Of a stretch of 64,000 bases of DNA, positions 1,352 to 25,889 are shown piece after piece. The translations under genes and the position numbers were made by a program. The stretch's first letter is position 1, and each line of letters starts with the position of its first letter. The notes under the pieces are model-generated. The model did not search any database, was not told the DNA's origin, and saw only the letters and a program-made list of their open reading frames with translations. The DNA comes from Photorhabdus thracensis (lineage in GTDB: Bacteria; Pseudomonadota; Gammaproteobacteria; Enterobacterales; Enterobacteriaceae), in assembly GCF_001010285.1 (NCBI RefSeq), contig NZ_CP011104.1, forward strand, positions 4,650,001 to 4,714,000, in the 5' to 3' direction.

Positions 1352-3040
1352 TCAGGCTATAGCTGCATTCCTAACCTTTTCTTCTTCATCGCGCAGTTCT
1401 CTGCGAAGAATTTTACCTACATTAGATTTAGGTAATTCATCCCGGAACTCAATGATCTTAGGTACTTTATACCCTGTCAGATAACGCCGGCAATGCGTTT
1501 TAAGTTCATCCTCGGTCAAACTAGGATCTCTTCGAACCACAAACACTTTGACAGTTTCACCGGAACTTTCACTTGATACGCCAATTGCTGCTGACTCTAG
1601 CACTTTCGGGTGAGCTGATACAACATCTTCAACTTCATTAGGATACACATTAAAACCAGAAACCAAAATCATATCTTTTTTGCGGTCTACGATATGAATA
1701 AAACCTTGTTCATTAACATTAGCAATATCACCTGTCGCTACCCAGCCATCTTTCAACACTTCTTCTGTCGCATCATGGCGATTCCAGTAACCAACCATAA
1801 CCTGTGGGCCACGGACCCACAATTCCCCTTGCTGACCTATCGGCACTTCATTACCGTCATCATCTACGAGTTTAATTTCAGTTGAAGATACTGGAAAACC
1901 AATACTGCCAGTGTAATGTTTCACGTTATAAGGATTACAGGAAACCAATGGTGAACATTCTGTCAGGCCATAGCCTTCAAGCAGGGGCCTTCCTGTTACT
2001 TCTACCCATCTTTCAGCAACCGCCTTCTGTACTGGCATACCACCACCAACAACGAGACGTAACGAAGAAAAATCAAGCTTCCTAAATTCTTCATTATTCA
2101 ACCAGGCGTTAAACAACGTATTCACCCCAGTTACAGAAGTGAACGGGTAGCGGCTCAACTCTTTGGCTGTACCGACAATATCACGCGGGTTAGTGATCAG
2201 AAGATTGCATCCCCCCAAGTAAATAAGCAGCAAACAGTTTACCAATAATGCAAATATGTGATAGAGAGGCAACGCAGTGACTATCAGTTCCTGACCAGAA
2301 TGCAGTAACGGTGAATAAACCGCTTTTGACTGTTCAAGATTTGCCAGAATATTACGGTGCGTCAACATAGCACCCTTAGCTACGCCAGTCGTGCCGCCAG
2401 TATATTGCAGAAAGGCCAAATCAGCGCCGTTAATATCCGGTTTTACATATTGCATGCGATAGCCTTTGTGTATCGCACTACGGAATGAGATGGCATCAGG
2501 CAGATTATACTTCGGTACCAGTCGTTTGATATATTTCACAGCAAAATCAACCAACGTACCTTTAGGACGGGATAGCTGATCGCCCAAACGCGTCAAAATA
2601 ACATGCTTAACTTCGGTATTAAAAACGATCTTTTCTAGTGTATGAGCAAAGTTGGACACAATCACAATAGCTGAAGTGCCGCTGTCATTAAGCTGATGTT
2701 CAAGTTCGCGTGGCGTATACATCGGGTTTACATTTACGACAACCATACCTGCACGCAGAACGCCAAACAGTGCAACAGGATATTGCAACAAGTTTGGCAT
2801 CATCAGTGCAACACGATCCCCTTTGCTTAATCCCAAACCATTTTGCAAATAAGCAGCAAATGCCCGACTACGCTCTTCCAGCTTACGGAAGGTCATAACC
2901 TCACCCATGTTGATGTACGCAGGTTGATCTGCATAGTGCGCTACAGCATTTTCAAACATCTCAACCAATGATGCATAACGATCCGGGTCAATTTCCGCAG
3001 GAACATCCGCCGGATAATGTTTTAGCCAGACTTTCTCCAA
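1352..3040 (-). CDS. fadD: Long-chain fatty acid--CoA ligase
   Basis: 562 aa. Acyl-CoA synthetase that activates imported long-chain fatty acids with ATP and CoA at the inner membrane, the entry to beta-oxidation. The AMP-binding signature [14 protein letters not shown] lies near residue 213-226, the adenylate motif [11 protein letters not shown] near 355, and the fatty-acid signature with [21 protein letters not shown] near 455. The C-terminus keeps the catalytic Lys region [11 protein letters not shown]. The start is TTG at 3040, with an AGGAG box just upstream; the E. coli gene is also reported to use TTG. Gene order with rnd and yeaY matches enterobacteria. Confidence 0.96.
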
Positions 3041-3395
3041 GGTAATACTCCTGAAATTTCAATTGCTATGTTATCACTCGCCTAATAAATAACGCACGCT
3101 TTGTTTTAACAAATTATTAACTCAACGTACCAGTGTAAAAAAAGAAACATTGTTCAGGTTGGGATACACATCACTAATTTCATGTTAATCCTTACATACA
3201 AAAAACAAAGAGAACTGTGTCGTCTGTAAATTATTTTTTATAATCAGTATATTATTGCCATAGTTAACATTTAACTTCGTTGCTACTGATTATACATTGA
3301 CCTATCTATTTTTCGTTTAAGATAGCATTTTTGGAATAGCATTTATTGCTTTCATCTATTCCAATACATTATTAAAAAACTCAGGATAATAAAAT
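3041..3395. other. Divergent intergenic region fadD / GNAT gene
   Basis: 355 bp, very AT-rich, between two divergent genes, so it must hold both promoters. I see AT-rich -10-like elements (for example around 3236-3255) but no operator, such as a clear FadR site, that I can defend. Confidence 0.4.
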
Positions 3396-16292: not shown

Positions 16293-17735
16293 ATGTCTAG
16301 ACGGCTCAGAAGAACTAAGATTGTTACTACACTTGGTCCGGCTACTGACCGCGATAATAACCTTGAAAAGATTATTACTGCGGGTGCAAACGTAGTCCGC
16401 CTCAACTTTTCCCACGGCACCGCAGAAGATCACATCCAGCGTGCCAATAAAGTCCGCGAGATCGCCGCCCGCCTGGGGTGCCATGTCGCTATCCTTGGCG
16501 ATCTTCAGGGACCTAAAATCCGCGTATCAACATTTAAAGAGGGCAAAATTTTCCTGAATATCGGAGATAAATTTCTGCTTGATGCTAACCTTAGCAAAGG
16601 CGAAGGCGATAAGGAGAAAGTCGGTATTGATTACAAAGGCTTACCCGCTGATGTTGTCCCGGGCGATATTCTGCTGCTGGATGATGGCCGTGTTCAACTG
16701 AAAGTATTAGAAGTTCAGGGAATGAAAGTATTCACGGAAGTGACAGTGGGTGGCCCGCTCTCCAACAATAAGGGTATCAACAAACTGGGCGGCGGTTTAT
16801 CTGCTGAAGCCCTGACCGAAAAAGATAAAGAAGACATTATCACCGCCGCCAGAATCGGTGTTGATTACCTGGCTGTCTCTTTTCCCCGCACCGGTGAAGA
16901 TCTCAATTACGCCCGCCGTCTGGCCCGGGATGCCGGTTGTGAAACCCAAATCGTGGCAAAAGTTGAACGTGCAGAAGCCGTTAGCAGTGATGAAATCATT
17001 GATGAAATCATTCTGGCTTCCGATGTCGTGATGGTTGCCCGTGGTGACCTCGGCGTAGAAATCGGTGATCCGGAACTGGTTGGTGTGCAGAAAAAACTGA
17101 TCCGCCGCGCCCGCCAGCTGAATCGTGTAGTGATTACCGCGACACAGATGATGGAATCCATGATTACCAACCTAATGCCTACCCGTGCAGAAGTTATGGA
17201 TGTGGCAAATGCGGTTCTTGATGGTACTGACGCAGTGATGCTCTCCGCTGAAACCGCAGCGGGCCAATACCCTGCCGAAACCGTTGCTGCGATGGCGCGG
17301 GTCTGTCTGGGCGCAGAAAAAATGCCAGGGCTCAGTGTATCCAAACATCGGCTAGACACGACTTTCGACAGTACCGAAGAGGCGATTGCCATGTCCACCA
17401 TGTACGCGGCAAACCATCTGAGCGGTGTTAAAGCGATTATCGCAATGACCGAATCAGGCCGCACTACACGAATAATGTCCCGCATCAGTTCTGGTCTGCC
17501 TATTTTCTCTATGTCCCGCCATGAGAAAACCCTAAACCAGACAGCACTTTACCGTGGCGTTACACCGGTTTATTGCAGCAGTCATACTGACGGCATCACA
17601 GCAGCCAATGAAGCCGTTAACCGCCTGCGAGACAAAGGTTATCTGGTTTCCGGCGACCTTGTTCTGGTGACTCAGGGCGACCAGATGGGAACCATTGGCA
17701 GTACCAACACCTGCCGTATTCTTGACGTGGAATAA
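16293..17735 (+). CDS. pykA: Pyruvate kinase II
   Basis: 480 aa, PykA length. Converts phosphoenolpyruvate and ADP to pyruvate and ATP. N-terminal [20 protein letters not shown], active-site Lys motif [11 protein letters not shown] near 218-228, then [13 protein letters not shown] near 243 with the metal-binding acidic residues. AMP-type allosteric C-terminal domain follows. In E. coli lpxM is next; here a foreign operon of about 6.5 kb lies between. Confidence 0.97.
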
Positions 17736-18401
17736 AAACTCATTACATTTTAGCGCCGGGCTTTCGGGGAGGAGACAGGTTAAATCGGGAAGACTGGCGC
17801 GCTTTACTTATCCAACACAACCAACGGTAAAAAAGTTTTTACCATCTCAGATTGTTGACAAGATGCTATTTTTTATCTGCCATTCTGTTTTAATCAGAAA
17901 AAACAGCTTTTAGATTGATTAACAAGGTCAGCCAAATAACAAAAACATGAGATTATATTAAAACATTTAACAGGGTTAACCGTATACGATTATTTATATT
18001 GACGAGTCCCTTACTTCAAAAAGAGAATTTTAATGTTTTATTATGGAAATATTTCAGTCATATATCATAAATAATACAATATTAAACTTAGCGTAAATAT
18101 CTTCACCTTAAATAATATAAATAATAATGATTTAAGTAGATTCTCATTAGCGAAAAATTAATCTCCATCAAAGCGATACCTGCCTGATATATCTAAAAAT
18201 CCAGGTTATATCTGACCAACGACATCATAAAAAAATAACAAAGCACATTGACAACCACTTAATATAGTACTATTAATTAAATGCTGATATCAGCATTTTC
18301 CATATGGATATAAAACAATAAAATTTCCGATAATATATTCTTATTTGAAGGAAATAATCAATCACGTATTAATCATCTGAAAATGTGGGCGGGAGAATAT
18401 C
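17736..18401. other. AT-rich spacer before the RiPP operon
   Basis: 666 bp, strikingly AT-rich, starting the foreign segment between pykA and lpxM. No gene is recognised; short frames here lack ribosome sites. It holds the putative operon promoter near 18248 and a second copy of sequence found upstream of the second precursor gene. Confidence 0.5.
18248..18276 (+). promoter_or_regulatory. Putative promoter of the RiPP precursor genes
   Basis: TTGACA at 18248-18253, 17 nt, then TATTAA at 18271-18276, about 126 nt before the first precursor. The -35 is perfect, the -10 partial. The surrounding DNA is so AT-rich that chance matches are possible. Confidence 0.45.
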
Positions 18402-18575
18402 ATGCAAAAAATTCCTACTGAAACCTGCAAAAACCAAGAGTTATTGAATTACCTTGTCACATCATTCAAAGGTACAGAATTGTCGATTACAAAAAAGAGA
18501 TTGGATGAACTCGTCAATAAAACCGATATCCCGGATATGACAACTTGGAAGTGGTCAAAGAATCTTCCCATTTGA
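18402..18575 (+). CDS. Candidate RiPP precursor peptide, copy 1
   Basis: 57 aa, starting at ATG 18402 with GGGAG 7 nt upstream. It aligns without gaps to the second peptide (18737-18913). Shared features are SFK-TELSIT at 21-30, a leader-like amphipathic helix (residues 10-40), I-P at 43-44, and a C-terminal W-K-WSK segment (49-53) followed by NLPI. The Trp-rich tail is the likely core. Radical SAM enzymes of the Xye/Fxs/Grr type cross-link an aromatic residue to a residue two positions later, and W-S-K fits that spacing. It has no double-glycine site. The function is inferred from the radical SAM and exporter genes downstream. Confidence 0.72.
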   Translation: MQKIPTETCKNQELLNYLVTSFKGTELSITKKRLDELVNKTDIPDMTTWKWSKNLPI

Positions 18576-18736
18576 TTCAATGAAAGGTGATATTAAGCCT
18601 TATTTATATGATACATCTGGAAGATCCAGTTTATGTCTTCTGGATGTAATTACCGAATTTCCCGATGATATATTCTTATTGGAAGGAAATAATGAACTCA
18701 CTCATTAATCATCTAAGAAATAAAATGGAGATTATC

Positions 18737-18913
18737 ATGCACAATACCTCAAATGAAATCATTAAAACTCAAGAAGCTCTCAATTCTCTTGCTGCATCAT
18801 TCAAAGAGACTGAACTCTCAATTACTGATAAAGCACTAAATGAATTAAGCAATAAACCTAATATCCCTGAGATTACGGCCTGGAACTGGTCAAAAAGCTT
18901 CCAGGAAATTTAG
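18737..18913 (+). CDS. Candidate RiPP precursor peptide, copy 2
   Basis: 58 aa, starting at ATG 18737 with GGAG 7 nt upstream. A longer frame opens at 18665 but the homology with copy 1 begins at this ATG. Identical or similar residues run through the leader (SFKETELSIT at 21-30, L-ELSNK at 35-40) to the tail, NIPEITAWNWSKSFQEI. The conserved W-x-W-S-K motif is the probable modified core; F54 adds another aromatic site. Followed by a hairpin region and then the exporter genes on the same strand. Confidence 0.75.
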   Translation: MHNTSNEIIKTQEALNSLAASFKETELSITDKALNELSNKPNIPEITAWNWSKSFQEI

Positions 18914-19019
18914 AGCTTATCCCATCAGGTTATTTTATTTTCCTGAGAAAATAATGCCTATTGGGATAAATAATCAATTTGTTCAGTTAAAATAAATAAT
19001 TTTCTGAACCTTAATCATA

Positions 19020-19050
19020 GGGTAATCCTATATATTATCCGGGATTACCC
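19020..19050 (+). terminator. Hairpin between precursors and exporter genes
   Basis: GGGTAATCC (19020-19028) and GGATTACCC (19042-19050) form a perfect 9-bp stem, followed by TAAATAGTTT. A second, looser stem (TTATCCCA at 18917-18924 with TGGGATAA at 18962-18969) lies just after the second precursor. Such stems between small peptide genes and large operon genes often give partial termination, so peptide mRNA exceeds enzyme mRNA. That use here is inferred. Confidence 0.55.
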
Positions 19051-19181
19051 TAAATAGTTTCATGAAGTAAATACTCAGAGGCAAGGGTATCTAAAAAATC
19101 CATACCCAAAAATTAATTTGAAAACTCGCCCCGCTAATAGCCCTAATAGAATGGGCCTTAAGTAAGGAACGGTAGCCATAA

Positions 19182-21551
19182 ATGAATGCTATTAACATCT
19201 CAGAATCCATGAAACGTTTCAATATATTGGTATCGATACTCTCAGTATCAATAGCGATATTAGCAATTTATCTACTTTCTACTGCCTTCTATTCAGATGC
19301 TCGAGTTGATAACTATTATCAAGATAATGGCAACATTTACCGGGTGGAAACCACCTTTAATTTGCCCAATGGAGAAAAAGTAAGATCGGCAAAATCGCCA
19401 TTGCCACTCATAGAGGAGCTAGAAAAAGACAGAAGGATAAATCGTGCAGACTACTTTTTCAAACTTAACACGACGGTTGAGTCACAAGGAAAAAAGATCA
19501 CCAAAGTTCCCGTGTTTGCAGTGAGTCATCAATTCCTGAATACCCTGTCTCCCTTTAAGAAAGTCGATAATATCTTGGGAGCAAATGAGATTTATATCAC
19601 AAAAGAATTCAATAATCGCTATCTCGGCCTGGAAAATCCCAAAGGAAAATCTATTATTCTGGATAATGAAACCTATATCATCAAAGATATCGTAGAAAGA
19701 CGTCAGGATTCGAGTCTTAATATGAATGCTATTATCTCATTTAAGCCAACACTTATCAAAAACTACAATAAAGAAATATTCAATTGGTATGACACACATG
19801 CTTATATTTTTATAAAATTCTCTGATGAAAACCCAATATCCAATCGCGATGCACTTCTTAATCATATTATTGCGACCAAAGCCCCTAATCTTCCAGGCGC
19901 ACCATTTACCGCCAGTGAATTTATTCACCTGTCATTAAAAAAATTAAAAGATATTCATTACCAAGATGGATTACCTGATGAAATCTCTATTGGTTTATCA
20001 AAGGAGATAATTTACAGCACATATATCGCATTCGCATTTATCTTATTTTCCGCATTAACCAACTATTATAATTTAATTTCTGCTGATTCAGCAGAAAAAA
20101 GAGATACTTATCAGTTAAAGAAAGCACTAGGTGCTTCAACCTTCAATATTATTTGCGATTCACTGCCAGCCATGTTGCTCAGAATAACCTTTTCCGCCCT
20201 TATCTTTTTGTTGCTTATCATAACTATATTCAATGCCTCTCTATATATAAAGAATATATTTACCCTATTAGAGCCAGACAGTTTAATATATTTAGGGATA
20301 TTTTCGGTTGTTATTGCTTTTATCTTAATTTCATCAATACATTTTTCATTCTCATTACGTTTTTATATTTATCAAAGAAACAGAAAAATGGATATGAGAT
20401 ATGAATCAACCCTTGCCTCCTGGTTTAGGAAATCATCATTGGCTATTCAATTACTTGTTTCCGGAATATCTATTTATTTAGTCACCGGATTAACCAATCA
20501 ATATATTCACCTTGTTGATTTACATACTCCATATGATAATGCCAAGACCATATCAATAGCAATTAATAACGATAATAATAAAAAATTAACTATTGATGAA
20601 TTAGGCTATGAGTTTATCAGCAAATACCATACTTCGAAAATAACACTCAGTAATTGGCGACCATTTGATATGTCAAGAGAAAATATCACTATTAATTATT
20701 CCGGCCAACAAAACAGAAATAACTATATCTCTTCGAATGTTATTACTGCGGATGAAAATTTTACTGATGTATGGAAAATGAAGATTTTAGCCGGTGGTGA
20801 TAAACGCGTATATCAGAGTGATAATGCTGATGTAGTCCATGCATTAGTGACAAAAGAATTTTTAAAACAGAATGGAATTATCAAATATGATGATATTTTT
20901 AACAACTACTATTGGTACACAATGGAGGATAAAAAGATCCAAATCAGATTTATTCAGATTATAGATAATTTCAATTTAGGTGCTGTAGATGAACCATTCA
21001 GGCCAATCGTTGTTTTCATCAAAAAAGATCATGGCAAATATGCTTCGCTGAATTTAAACAATATGAGCAACCTTTCTCCGGTACTTAACGAACTATCAAA
21101 ACAGGGTTTCGATAAAAATGAAATTGATTTAACCAGTCACTTATTTAACTCTTATTATGATAATTATTTAAAAGTAATTAAATTATCATCCGCCGTCGCT
21201 ATTTTTTCGGTCCTGTTATTAGTCATCGCCTGCTTTACTACCAGCATGACTGACTTTAACGCGATGAAAAGAGAACTAAGTATAATGGAATCCATTGGTG
21301 GTTCTATTTACACCAACCTCATTCATTTTTTATCGAAAAGTGTCATCCCAATAATCGCATCAATTTTCGTGGCATATATATCAGGAAGAACTATTTTAGT
21401 TTATCTGCTTGATGAATATAGTGTGATTTACACCGATTCTTTTGTATACAGTGCTATCGCCCTATCTACTACAATGATATTCACCGTTATTATAATGATT
21501 ACTATTTATTTGGTGAATTACAGAAAATTATCCGCCACTAAATTTTTGTGA
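19182..21551 (+). CDS. ABC transporter permease (MacB/FtsX type, 8 TM)
   Basis: 789 aa. Two FtsX-like halves: a membrane helix at about 13-35, a periplasmic MacB-type domain (about 36-270), three helices (about 275-390), then a helix near 415-440, a second periplasmic domain (about 440-660) and three final helices. There is no ATPase domain; it is encoded separately at 22815. With the HlyD-like protein and ATPase it should form a MacAB-TolC-like exporter, probably for the modified peptide. AT-rich, unlike the flanking core genes. Confidence 0.82.
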   Translation: MNAINISESMKRFNILVSILSVSIAILAIYLLSTAFYSDARVDNYYQDNGNIYRVETTFNLPNGEKVRSAKSPLPLIEELEKDRRINRADYFFKLNTTVESQGKKITKVPVFAVSHQFLNTLSPFKKVDNILGANEIYITKEFNNRYLGLENPKGKSIILDNETYIIKDIVERRQDSSLNMNAIISFKPTLIKNYNKEIFNWYDTHAYIFIKFSDENPISNRDALLNHIIATKAPNLPGAPFTASEFIHLSLKKLKDIHYQDGLPDEISIGLSKEIIYSTYIAFAFILFSALTNYYNLISADSAEKRDTYQLKKALGASTFNIICDSLPAMLLRITFSALIFLLLIITIFNASLYIKNIFTLLEPDSLIYLGIFSVVIAFILISSIHFSFSLRFYIYQRNRKMDMRYESTLASWFRKSSLAIQLLVSGISIYLVTGLTNQYIHLVDLHTPYDNAKTISIAINNDNNKKLTIDELGYEFISKYHTSKITLSNWRPFDMSRENITINYSGQQNRNNYISSNVITADENFTDVWKMKILAGGDKRVYQSDNADVVHALVTKEFLKQNGIIKYDDIFNNYYWYTMEDKKIQIRFIQIIDNFNLGAVDEPFRPIVVFIKKDHGKYASLNLNNMSNLSPVLNELSKQGFDKNEIDLTSHLFNSYYDNYLKVIKLSSAVAIFSVLLLVIACFTTSMTDFNAMKRELSIMESIGGSIYTNLIHFLSKSVIPIIASIFVAYISGRTILVYLLDEYSVIYTDSFVYSAIALSTTMIFTVIIMITIYLVNYRKLSATKFL

Positions 21552-22813
21552 GACTAATCATGGACATAGAAATCAGAAAAAAAGGCATACATAACAGAGA
21601 GAAATTACTCATTCTTATTTTCTTTATCGCTTTTATTTCATTTGTTGTATTTATTATTTATTATATCGTTTCGGCTAAAGACGCTTTCGTGAATGAAAAT
21701 GAAGTTACCCAGTTTCAAGTCAGCAGCAAAATAGATAGTGATATTCTGAAAACCAGGGCAGTTGTGGTTCCTGATAAAAGCGTCTCTATCTCAACAGAGA
21801 TAGGAGGAATCGTTACCGATATAATGAAAAAACCATCACAAGATGTTTTAAAGAATGAAGAAATCGTTAAATTATCTAATTTTAATTTCACATTGAATAA
21901 TTCTTCAATGTTAGCGGACGTGACAGATAAACTCAATAATTTAATAAACATCAGAATAAACTTACAATCCGACTATCGGGATATCAATAACCGATTCTTA
22001 GAAGCATCCAAAGAATTAAAAGAAGTAGAAGATAAATTAAAACGATATCATGATCTTGTACATAAAAATTATGTTTCTAAAGAAACCATGTCCGATTTAA
22101 GGATTAAAAGAGATTATTGGCACGATGTTTATCTATTCTACAAAAGATTAAAAAATGATAAAGATCGTGATATATCAAAACAGTTAAAAGAAATCGACGA
22201 ATTTGTCGAAAAACAGAGAAAACTCGCCGACATCATCGAAAATGGTTTCGAGCAACTTTCAATAAAATCCCCTATCGCCGGTAATATCAGTTCATTAGAT
22301 TTAATTTTAGGACAACGGTTAAAACCCGGCGATAAAATAGCTATTGTTGATGATTTATCAAACTTTTATTTTGAATCAGAAATCAACGAATACTATTTAA
22401 ACAAAATAACATACCATTCATCTGCCAGTTTAATCTATAACAATGGAAAAATATCTTTACTAGTGAAATTAATTTCATCTGAAGTCAATAATGGAACATT
22501 CAAAGTCAGATTTGAATTGGAAGATAAGAAAGCAATTAACTTCAAGCGAGGGCAATCCATTGATGTCATGATTAAACTTGATGAAGATCGGAAAATATTC
22601 TCCGTACCTTCATCTATGGTGTTTTCCATTGACAATAAAAACTATGTGTTTGTTTACCATCCAGATAAAAAAATTGCCCAACGTATTCAAGTTTCCACCG
22701 GCCAAGATAATGGTTCTGATATTGAGATCAAAAGCGGTATTACTGAAGGACAAACACTCGTGAACTTTGGTAAGAATAAATTAGTTAATAATGATACAGT
22801 AAGGATTGAATAA
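21548..22813 (+). CDS. HlyD/MacA-type membrane fusion protein
   Basis: 421 aa if it starts at the GTG at 21548 (overlapping the permease stop by 4 nt), or 417 aa from ATG 21560; the choice is open. One N-terminal membrane helix (about 19-42), then a barrel-sandwich half near 65-105, a long charged coiled coil (about 110-220), the second half with SIKSPIAGNISSLDLILGQ near 238, and beta-barrel domains. It should bridge the inner-membrane permease to an outer-membrane TolC channel. Part of the exporter operon. Confidence 0.85.
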   Translation: MRLIMDIEIRKKGIHNREKLLILIFFIAFISFVVFIIYYIVSAKDAFVNENEVTQFQVSSKIDSDILKTRAVVVPDKSVSISTEIGGIVTDIMKKPSQDVLKNEEIVKLSNFNFTLNNSSMLADVTDKLNNLINIRINLQSDYRDINNRFLEASKELKEVEDKLKRYHDLVHKNYVSKETMSDLRIKRDYWHDVYLFYKRLKNDKDRDISKQLKEIDEFVEKQRKLADIIENGFEQLSIKSPIAGNISSLDLILGQRLKPGDKIAIVDDLSNFYFESEINEYYLNKITYHSSASLIYNNGKISLLVKLISSEVNNGTFKVRFELEDKKAINFKRGQSIDVMIKLDEDRKIFSVPSSMVFSIDNKNYVFVYHPDKKIAQRIQVSTGQDNGSDIEIKSGITEGQTLVNFGKNKLVNNDTVRIE

Positions 22814-22814
22814 A

Positions 22815-23477
22815 ATGATTAGCATGATGAATGTCTGTAAATCATATAAAACGAAATTCATTCAAACAAATGTTTTGAATGAAATAAATCTCAATATAGA
22901 TAAAGGCGAATTTATTTCTATAATGGGAGCGTCTGGGTCAGGGAAATCAACATTACTGAATGTCATTGGCATGTTTGAAACGATCGATAGCGGTCAATTA
23001 ACACTGAACAATAGCAATATTTTAACAATGAAATATTCTGAAAAAATATCATTCAGACGAGAATTTATTGGTTATATTTTTCAATCATTCAATCTGTTAC
23101 CCAATTTAACGGTATTTGAAAACATAGAGTTACCATTAAAATACAGAGGTTTTTCTAAAAAACAGCGGAAAAGAAGAGTATTTGATGCAATAAATAGTTT
23201 TAGATTAGAAAATCGGGAAAATCATAAACCGATACAATTATCTGGTGGACAACAGCAACGTGTTGCTATCGCCAGAGCAATGATAGCAAACCCCGCCATT
23301 TTATTGGCTGATGAACCAACCGGGAACCTGGATAGCGTAAATGGTCAGAATATTTTATCTTCACTTAAAGAACTGAATGAAAACGGTACGACGATTGTTA
23401 TGGTAACCCATTCCGTAGAAGCGGCAGCGTTTTCTGACAGAATATTAACGATGAGGGATGGCCACTTGCTTGGTTGA
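22815..23477 (+). CDS. ABC transporter ATP-binding protein (LolD/MacB type)
   Basis: 220 aa from ATG 22815, preceded by AAGGA; a TTG-starting frame opens 9 nt earlier and overlaps the previous stop. Walker A is [11 protein letters not shown] (about residues 35-45), signature [15 protein letters not shown] (about 137-151), Walker [13 protein letters not shown] (about 157-168). The Q-loop reads IFQSFNLLP. It powers the permease at 19182. Confidence 0.9.
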
Positions 23478-23506
23478 GCATAAATAACATAATAAAGGAG
23501 TTCTTT

Positions 23507-24796
23507 ATGGACACAATAATCCCCATAAAATATTTAGATTCAGACGAATCATCGATTCTCAAGAAATCGTCTAAAATTAATTACAGGCAATTAGCTTGCC
23601 GAATTATCGGTGAAATCCCCGCCGAAAAGATATTAGATGATGATGAGCTGGCTTTATATAATGAAGAAATCAGTATTCATTTCAGCCCTGAAATTATTAA
23701 TGCTAATAAGTTAGTTGTGGTTGTGAAAGCCACCAGGCTTTGCAATTTAAGATGCACTTATTGTCACTCCTGGGCAGAAGGAAAAGGAAATACCTTAACA
23801 TTCTTCAATTTAATGCGCTCCATTCACCGTTTCTTATCCCTGCCGAATATCAAGCGATTTGAATTCGTCTGGCATGGTGGCGAAGTGACTTTGTTGAATG
23901 TTAATTATTTTAAGAAACTCATCTGGTTACAGGAACAATTTAAAAAACCAGATCAAGTTATTACCAATTCAGTACAGACTAACGCAGTCAATATTCCCGA
24001 AGATTGGTTAGTGTTTCTCAAAGGTATTGGCATGGGGGTAGGGATAAGCGTTGATGGTATTGCGGAAATACACGATAGCAGGAGATTAGATTACAGAGGA
24101 AGGCCAACATCCCATAAAGTCGCGGCAGGTATGAAAAAGTTAAGAAGTTATGGCATACCTTACGGTGCGCTTATCGTCGTCGACCGCGATGTTTATGAAT
24201 CCAATATAGAAAAAATGCTCTCTTATTTTTACGAAATCGGTTTGACGGATATTGAATTTCTGAATATTGTCCCAGACAATCGATGCCAGCCGGGTGATGA
24301 TCCTGGAGGAAGTTATATCACTTACCATAACTATATTAATTTCCTTTCTAAGGTTTTCCGTGTCTGGTGGGATGGTTTTCAAGGAAAAATTAATATTCGC
24401 TTGTTTGACGGATTTATTGACAGTATCAAATCGTCCCAAAAGAAAATGTCAGATTGTTATTGGGCGGGTAACTGTTCTCAGGAAATAATCACATTGGAAC
24501 CTAATGGTACAGTATCAGCATGTGATAAATATGTTGGTGCTGAAGGGAATAATTACGGTTCGATTATTGATAATGATCTTGGGAATTTACTCGCCAAATC
24601 AAATACAAATAAGAATCATCTTAAAGAAGAAATGGAATCATATGAAAAAATGCATCAATGTAAATGGTTTCATTTATGTAATGGTGGATGCCCACACGAT
24701 CGAGTGACCAACAGGAAGCACAATCCAAACTATGATGGTTCATGTTGTGGAACCGGCGGTTTGTTGGAGACAATAAAACAAACCATAGCGGCATAA
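23507..24796 (+). CDS. Radical SAM/SPASM peptide-modifying enzyme
   Basis: 429 aa from ATG 23507, chosen for its AAAGGAG site 6 nt upstream (the frame opens 11 codons earlier). The CX3CX2C motif RLCNLRCTYCHSW has Cys at about 79, 83 and 86 for the SAM-cleaving cluster. WHGGEVTLL near 133 is the SAM-binding GGE motif in the WHGGE form seen in FxsB/GrrM/XyeB-type enzymes. The C-terminal SPASM domain has many Cys (NCSQEII, VSACDKY, QCKWFHLCNGGCPHD, SCCGTGG). I infer it forms aromatic cyclophane cross-links in the two upstream peptides. Close to the Xye maturases known from Xenorhabdus, Yersinia and Erwinia, though that subtype needs a profile search. Confidence 0.85.
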   Translation: MDTIIPIKYLDSDESSILKKSSKINYRQLACRIIGEIPAEKILDDDELALYNEEISIHFSPEIINANKLVVVVKATRLCNLRCTYCHSWAEGKGNTLTFFNLMRSIHRFLSLPNIKRFEFVWHGGEVTLLNVNYFKKLIWLQEQFKKPDQVITNSVQTNAVNIPEDWLVFLKGIGMGVGISVDGIAEIHDSRRLDYRGRPTSHKVAAGMKKLRSYGIPYGALIVVDRDVYESNIEKMLSYFYEIGLTDIEFLNIVPDNRCQPGDDPGGSYITYHNYINFLSKVFRVWWDGFQGKINIRLFDGFIDSIKSSQKKMSDCYWAGNCSQEIITLEPNGTVSACDKYVGAEGNNYGSIIDNDLGNLLAKSNTNKNHLKEEMESYEKMHQCKWFHLCNGGCPHDRVTNRKHNPNYDGSCCGTGGLLETIKQTIAA

Positions 24797-24842
24797 ATGC
24801 TATCCTGATATTTCAAGTGCAAGTAAAATGTTTCATCATAAC

Positions 24843-24882
24843 AACCCCTAATCATTGGATATGATGTCCAATATTAGGGGTT
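24843..24882. terminator. Bidirectional terminator between radical SAM gene and lpxM
   Basis: AACCCCTAAT and ATTGGA (24843-24859, one unpaired base) pair with TCCAAT and ATTAGGGGTT (24867-24882) around 7 nt. It separates two convergent genes and marks the right edge of the RiPP operon. Confidence 0.8.
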
Positions 24883-24920
24883 AGGTTCAAACTGTGATAA
24901 TTACTTCATATATATTAAAA

Positions 24921-25889
24921 TCACAGATCTTCCCTGTTATACGGCTCAATATCCCCCTCTTTGCGGGTCTTAAGCAATTTAAGGATCCAGGTGTATTGCT
25001 CAGGGTTTGGCCGCACTAATTGTTCCAATTCCTCATTCATCCGGCGGGCAATAAAAGCATCATCTTTGCCTTCAATATCATCCATTGGAGGGCGAATATA
25101 AATATCAAGCTGATGAGTACGGTAATTATAAACCGGAAACAACGGCACAATCGCCGCACGGCAAATCTTCATCAGTCTCCCAATGGCCGGTAATGTCGCC
25201 TTATACGTTGCGAAGAAATCGACAAATTCGCTGTGTTCCTCGCCGTGATCTTGATCAGGAAGATAATATCCCCAGTAACCCTGGCGAACGGTAGCAATAA
25301 AAGGTTTAATGCCGGCATCACGGGAATGTAAGCGACCACCAAAACGACCCCGGACTTTATTCCACAGATAATCTGCTACAGGGTTCTTCTGATGATGAAA
25401 CATCGCCGCTGCTTTCTGTCCATTAGCTGTCAATAATATCGCCGGAATATCCACAGCCCAGCCATGAGGAACCATGAAAATAATGTTTTTCCCCTGCGCT
25501 TTCAGTTGGCGGGTAATCTCTTCACCATGCCAATGCGTCCGGCTTAAAGCTGATTTTGTACCACGTAAACAAATCTCAGCCAGCATAACAAAAGGTTGCG
25601 GCGCAGTAGAAAACATCTCATCAATCACCGCCTCGCGCTGCTGCGCTGTCAGTTCCGGCATACAGTAGCACAGATTGATCCGCGCTCTGCGGCGCGCCCC
25701 TTTCGCAAGTCTACCGGCTAGCCACCCTATTTTAGCCAACAAAGGATCACGCATTTTAACCGGGAAGTAAGTCAGCCCAGCCAATACACCCACCCCCAGC
25801 CATAATCCCCAGTAGCGAGGATGCAGGTAGGATTTATGAAATGTCGGCACATAACCCACTTTACTGTCTGTATCTGTCTCTTTATGCAT
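24921..25889 (-). CDS. lpxM: Lipid A myristoyltransferase LpxM
   Basis: 322 aa. Adds the secondary (usually myristoyl) chain to Kdo2-lauroyl-lipid A at the cytoplasmic face of the inner membrane. One N-terminal membrane segment (GLWLGVGVLAGLTYFPV) and the HX4D catalytic motif VPHGWAVD near residue 139-146. Gene order pykA, lpxM, mepM, znuA as in E. coli. Confidence 0.95.
   Translation of the reverse strand: MHKETDTDSKVGYVPTFHKSYLHPRYWGLWLGVGVLAGLTYFPVKMRDPLLAKIGWLAGRLAKGARRRARINLCYCMPELTAQQREAVIDEMFSTAPQPFVMLAEICLRGTKSALSRTHWHGEEITRQLKAQGKNIIFMVPHGWAVDIPAILLTANGQKAAAMFHHQKNPVADYLWNKVRGRFGGRLHSRDAGIKPFIATVRQGYWGYYLPDQDHGEEHSEFVDFFATYKATLPAIGRLMKICRAAIVPLFPVYNYRTHQLDIYIRPPMDDIEGKDDAFIARRMNEELEQLVRPNPEQYTWILKLLKTRKEGDIEPYNREDL

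Follow-up and report, generated by a model that had tools for sequence, protein, structure and literature searches.

Which product does a radical SAM operon of Photorhabdus thracensis make, and is the second of its two precursor peptides new? The operon lies between two genes that we take to be pykA and lpxM, called by eye from the sequence and not from the family-library scan. The window is the whole stretch of 64,000 nucleotides analysed (contig NZ_CP011104.1, positions 4,650,001 to 4,714,000); all coordinates below refer to it. The original prediction of a radical SAM/SPASM RiPP operon that encodes two precursors and its own exporter agrees with the six matches to darobactin families reported here, but it did not recognise the locus as darobactin, and the precursor pair is already printed in PMC8694152. 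The best explanation of the whole, to which we assign a probability of about 0.97, is that this is the published darobactin cluster of P. thracensis, with darA and a duplicated, drifted and likely decaying precursor. Not only the two-precursor locus is published; the second product, darobactin F, has likewise already been reported, as an inactive compound. The observation of the locus was thus right, its novelty was not, since the system is known.

A complete darobactin operon with the order darA-darA-darB-darC-darD-darE occupies 18402-24796 on the plus strand. The features are:

16293-17735: pykA, upstream of the operon
18321..18383, plus strand: 5′ leader of the upstream precursor, a duplicate of the darA leader (direct repeats D1 and D11)
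18402..18575, plus strand: second darA-type precursor (DAR F), core WKWSKNL followed by PI (NF038004, 45.5 bits, cut-off 45)
18737..18913, plus strand: darA, darobactin A precursor, core WNWSKSF followed by QEI (NF038004, 72.2 bits, cut-off 45)
19182..21551, plus strand: darB, exporter permease of 789 amino acids with eight hydrophobic segments (NF038008, 937.8 bits, cut-off 700)
21548..22813, plus strand: darC, HlyD-like periplasmic adaptor with a single hydrophobic segment near the N terminus (NF038010, 498.8 bits, cut-off 450)
22815..23477, plus strand: darD, exporter ATPase, the longer listed ORF starting at 22806 (NF038007, 378.0 bits, cut-off 375)
23507..24796, plus strand: darE, radical SAM/SPASM maturase with CNLRCTYC at residues 79-86 (NF038005, 742.3 bits, cut-off 650)
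24843..24882, no strand assigned: a strong hairpin that may act as terminator, located between darE and lpxM (-22.5 kcal/mol, z -4.78)
24921-25889, minus strand: lpxM, downstream of the operon

All six operon proteins score above the curated NCBIfam equivalog cut-offs for darobactin, the upstream precursor and DarD barely so; the operon is therefore not a chance assembly of matches. The last three ORFs are listed with GTG or TTG starts (21548-22813, 22806-23477 and 23474-24796, plus strand). DarD was scanned from the ATG at 22815 (220 amino acids) and DarE from the ATG at 23507 (429 amino acids), and with these ATG starts the NCBIfam models of both proteins align from residue 1. As had been predicted, the ORFs from 18402 to 24796 all lie on the plus strand between pykA and lpxM, and the permease, the HlyD-like protein, the ATPase and the radical SAM/SPASM enzyme are all present, with the exporter split as described. 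The AT-rich left flank was also confirmed: the GC content is 28-31% in the steps covering 17750-18499 versus 48-54% over pykA, and left flank and operon are both AT-rich relative to pykA and lpxM. A dispersed repeat of approximately 94 bases is located in this flank (17893-17986), and other copies are found in the P. thracensis genome and in the genus. The "strong terminator" held in part. The hairpin is strong, but it is not followed by a T run on the plus strand and the terminator scan does not list it. The only Rfam match over 17700-25000 has 28.6 bits, below the gathering score of 50, and is due to chance.

The two precursors are 57 amino acids (18402-18575) and 58 amino acids long (18737-18913, nested in a longer ORF from 18665). 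They had been called paralogous, and they are: the upstream peptide is 58% identical to the downstream one over its residues 5-54 (E 8.6e-14). The duplication includes the 5′ leaders, where repeat D1 pairs 18321-18361 with 18656-18696 (41 nt, 88% identity, 335 nt apart) and repeat D11 pairs 18362-18383 with 18698-18719 (82%). Both translations contain a seven-residue W-x-W-x-K core, WNWSKSF downstream and WKWSKNL upstream; position 7 of the core is Phe in darA and Leu in the upstream precursor, a difference that concerns this one precursor and leaves the assignment of the operon untouched. In a script comparison with Table 1 of PMC8694152 both peptides were identical over their full length to the pair given there for P. 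thracensis DSM15199. In these rows precursor (1) carries WKWSKNL and is named DAR F, and precursor (2) is of the darobactin A type. This rules out the upstream peptide as a new second precursor, and the window most likely stems from the same strain or species as the published pair, from which it does not differ.

PMC8694152 also describes a second precursor beside darA in some Photorhabdus strains and already suggests its degeneration. For DAR F, the core was expressed there in E. coli with the P. khanii leader in front and no follower, not in its own precursor; the product is reported to have no activity, which was ascribed to the missing Phe7; this residue was tied to mimicry of the beta-signal. 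The yield of DAR F is given in two ways within one section, as an intensity below 10% of DAR A and as a yield in the range of DAR B. For the doubly charged ions of DAR A and DAR F the paper lists m/z 483.71 and 487.25. In five predicted producers none of the alternative darobactins was detected, according to the same text (PMC8694152).

The original prediction had placed the enzyme with the Xye/Fxs/Grr-type enzymes, which would make the locus a new cyclophane (triceptide) operon, and had proposed a search with the XyeB and FxsB profiles. Both profiles stay far below their cut-offs (TIGR04496, 65.0 of 450 bits; TIGR04269, 83.5 of 370 bits), as does GrrM (TIGR04261, 116.6 of 310 bits), whereas the DarE model scores 742.3 bits against 650. 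DynA (NF041298, 182.5 bits, cut-off 450) and DarW (NF041300, 505.5 bits, cut-off 650) likewise remain below threshold. The weak matches to XyeB, FxsB and GrrM and the membership in the same wider radical SAM/SPASM grouping speak for a cyclophane enzyme. The profile scores reject it, both precursors match the darobactin precursor model NF038004, and both equal a published pair, an identity that by itself refutes the assignment. A cyclophane operon is therefore almost certainly the wrong reading, and we keep to the darobactin cluster. The solved structures nearest to DarE by sequence are anaerobic sulfatase-maturating enzymes, and among the structures matching it (three distinct sequences) none is a darobactin maturase.

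For DarE of P. khanii, PMC9055067 describes an ether between Trp1 and Trp3 and a carbon-carbon bond from Trp3 to Lys (or Arg) at position 5, with a net change of +12 Da. The predicted cross-link within WSK is consistent, by analogy, with this published Trp-Lys bond. The expected loss of 2 Da per cross-link does not fit, as the published mass change is +12 overall, the ether by itself giving +14 (PMC9055067); because one darobactin link is a Trp-O-Trp ether, a search for -2 Da per link would miss the product. Leader removal had been left open. This is partly answered by PMC9055067, where both E. coli and the native host are inferred to cut it with hydrolases of their own. In the P. thracensis strain, DarE would accordingly join Trp1 to Trp3 of the DarA core WNWSKSF by an ether and Trp3 to Lys5 by a carbon-carbon bond, cellular proteases would trim leader and follower, and the heptapeptide is thought to be exported by DarBCD. 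Exported darobactin would then block the BamA of Gram-negative competitors. The gene upstream would have arisen by duplication of darA, as a precursor of the darobactin B type whose core drifted to WKWSKNL (darobactin F). P. khanii DarE processes this core behind a DarA leader, but the product lacks both Phe7 and antibacterial activity, and the gene is therefore most likely decaying. We infer that the P. thracensis strain makes and exports darobactin A. Others have demonstrated the cross-links and the target, and also that DAR F can be produced in E. coli but is inactive; the identity of the locus, its distribution in the genus and the lesions come from this analysis.

DarBCD might instead be mainly a self-protection pump and not a dedicated product exporter. 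DarA and DarE suffice for production in E. coli (PMC8694152), so synthesis needs no transport, and the listed ORFs of the operon include no separate immunity gene. On the other hand, the NCBIfam models call DarBCD a darobactin exporter, by annotation only, and export and protection are not mutually exclusive. We regard a pump that serves mainly for protection as rather doubtful and retain export by DarBCD as the working interpretation. The exporter does not qualify as MacB, in which ATPase and permease are fused, since DarD scores below the cut-off of that model (NF007826, 211.7 bits, cut-off 966). The permease DarB has a gene of its own and matches FtsX slightly below threshold (24.9 bits, cut-off 25.5).

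The darobactin A gene cluster was reportedly first described in Photorhabdus khanii, by Imai in 2019. The P. khanii cluster as described in PMC9055067 has the same gene types in the same order and the same core WNWSKSF as the window. Compared to P. khanii NC19 (L104), DarB is 95.6, DarC 96.9, DarD 96.3 and DarE 98.1% identical, but NC19 lacks the second precursor that is present in the window. In P. heterorhabditis SF41 and in P. asymbiotica DSM 15149 a darobactin B precursor has the same place upstream of darA and the same follower PI as the upstream precursor here; its core is WNWTKRF instead of WKWSKNL. The cluster IV daropeptide locus of P. asymbiotica differs from the window, according to the description in PMC9055067, as it has no DarBCD and its product only one ether link. 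Three genomes of the genus (G002, G003 and G007) encode other DarE relatives above the DarE cut-off elsewhere in the genome (L019, L020, L021), whose precursors end in WTFRF and thus fit the published cluster IV. NF038004 detected neither of the two WTFRF precursors scanned, out of the three at these loci.

To follow the second precursor through the genus, seven operons were compared, the window and L099-L104. The C-terminal end of darA, WNWSKSFQEI, is found in all seven, and a second precursor beside darA in five; none was found in L100 (P. australis DSM 17609) and in P. khanii NC19. Among the five copies, two are intact, two are broken, and the window copy has Leu at position 7. The darobactin B core, WNWTKRF, is found in the two intact ones, those of L099 (P. 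heterorhabditis SF41) and L101 (P. asymbiotica DSM 15149). In L102 (P. namnaonensis PB45.5, 2886-3056) the start codon is replaced by ATA and the second precursor has no in-frame ATG, GTG or TTG; in L103 (P. luminescens DSM 3368, 2920-3090) codon 17 is TGA and the core is WNWAKKN. When L102 is compared with L103, 5 synonymous and 12 non-synonymous changes fall in the second precursor versus 7 and 2 in darA (Fisher p 0.038, uncorrected, for one pair of genes of 57-58 codons; the pairs computed numbered 10 for the second precursor and 21 for darA). For the window copy the ratio of non-synonymous to synonymous change is 0.20 against L099, 0.27 against L101 and 0.11 against L103, and against L102 synonymous change is saturated.

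The broken copies, the absent copies and the copy lacking Phe7 fit a duplicated precursor that is decaying. The two outright lesions support its erosion within the genus. In the P. thracensis strain itself decay is likely rather than proven, because the window copy has kept a start codon, an open frame and low ratios. Four features speak for a gene kept for a useful darobactin F directed at another target or at bacteria not yet tested: the frame is open, the cut-off of the precursor model is just exceeded, the ratio is 0.20-0.27 against the two intact copies, and DarE accepts the core behind the DarA leader (PMC8694152, for DAR F). Yet the product is reported there as inactive, the window copy is without the Phe7 that the same source links to beta-signal mimicry, and of the seven operons two lack the gene, while two of the remaining five have a broken copy. 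A useful darobactin F therefore seems improbable to us, and we favour a duplicated precursor that is being lost.

The original prediction had also suggested looking for the same operon in other genomes. A search of 12 genomes of the genus with the DarE model (E ≤0.001) gave matches in 8, of which 7 are above the cut-off. Relatives of the pykA and lpxM products adjoin in all 12 genomes, and the full operon is located between them in 6 (G000, G002, G003, G006, G008 and G009). Fragments of the operon are found at this site in three further genomes, G011, G010 and G001. In G011 (L088) the last 32 residues of DarE are left between pykA and lpxM, and in G010 (L089) and G001 (L090) pieces of DarD. 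In G004, G005 and G007 the gap between both genes is approximately 145-290 bases long and contains no match to a dar protein. Altogether, 9 of the 12 genomes have the operon, whole or in pieces, at the same position, as would fit an old insertion that was lost several times. Repeated loss is likely as judged from these junctions, not from a count of losses on a tree. A horizontal origin has already been suggested from the low GC content, in a passage of PMC11547657. A plasmid search with DarE yielded 263 records, all below 60% identity; the best among the matches listed is darE of Vibrio crassostreae with 59.8%. Further radical SAM relatives of DarE are present in L008 (G011) and L012 (G003), with 153.2 and 144.0 bits, below the cut-off.

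How a producer would protect its own BamA was addressed with the same 12 genomes. No ungapped variable column of BamA tells the 6 genomes that have the operon apart from the 6 that lack it, and on these columns a target mutation dividing producers from non-producers is rejected. Residue 444 (E. coli numbering), which together with F426 is named in PMC10107326 as a pocket for the darobactin derivative D9, is Ala in all 12 genomes (L076-L087). Of 91 BamA proteins from elsewhere a single one has Ala there, L193, which is 54% identical to BamA of the P. thracensis window genome. The 91 proteins comprise 58 loci and 33 of the 43 remaining family places; the ten lowest-scoring family places were left out, as were 26 of the 27 order places without a locus. 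Of 766 columns tested, 663 are fixed in the 12 genomes, and in four of these, column 444 included, no more than 1 of the 91 others shares the state; column 444 was picked after looking and has no contrast between producers and non-producers behind it. Position 426 is Leu or Met in the genus, as it is in 24 of the 91 others. In PMC8694152, binding of darobactin to BamA is described as dominated by the backbone. That the operon shows no obvious immunity gene might be explained by protection of BamA through Ala at 444 throughout the genus, and the operon could then have been lost repeatedly beneath a fixed target; we consider this a long shot. The literature searched, as far as its text extended, contained nothing on Photorhabdus BamA as self-protection against darobactin, which is no proof of absence.

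Darobactin is a lead compound against Gram-negative bacteria, and the locus is important yet already described. The small additions made here are comparative: within the genus the operon was probably lost more than once from one site, and the second precursor has eroded in several species. In addition, the nearly genus-specific residue in the drug target BamA makes the question of self-protection in Photorhabdus testable.
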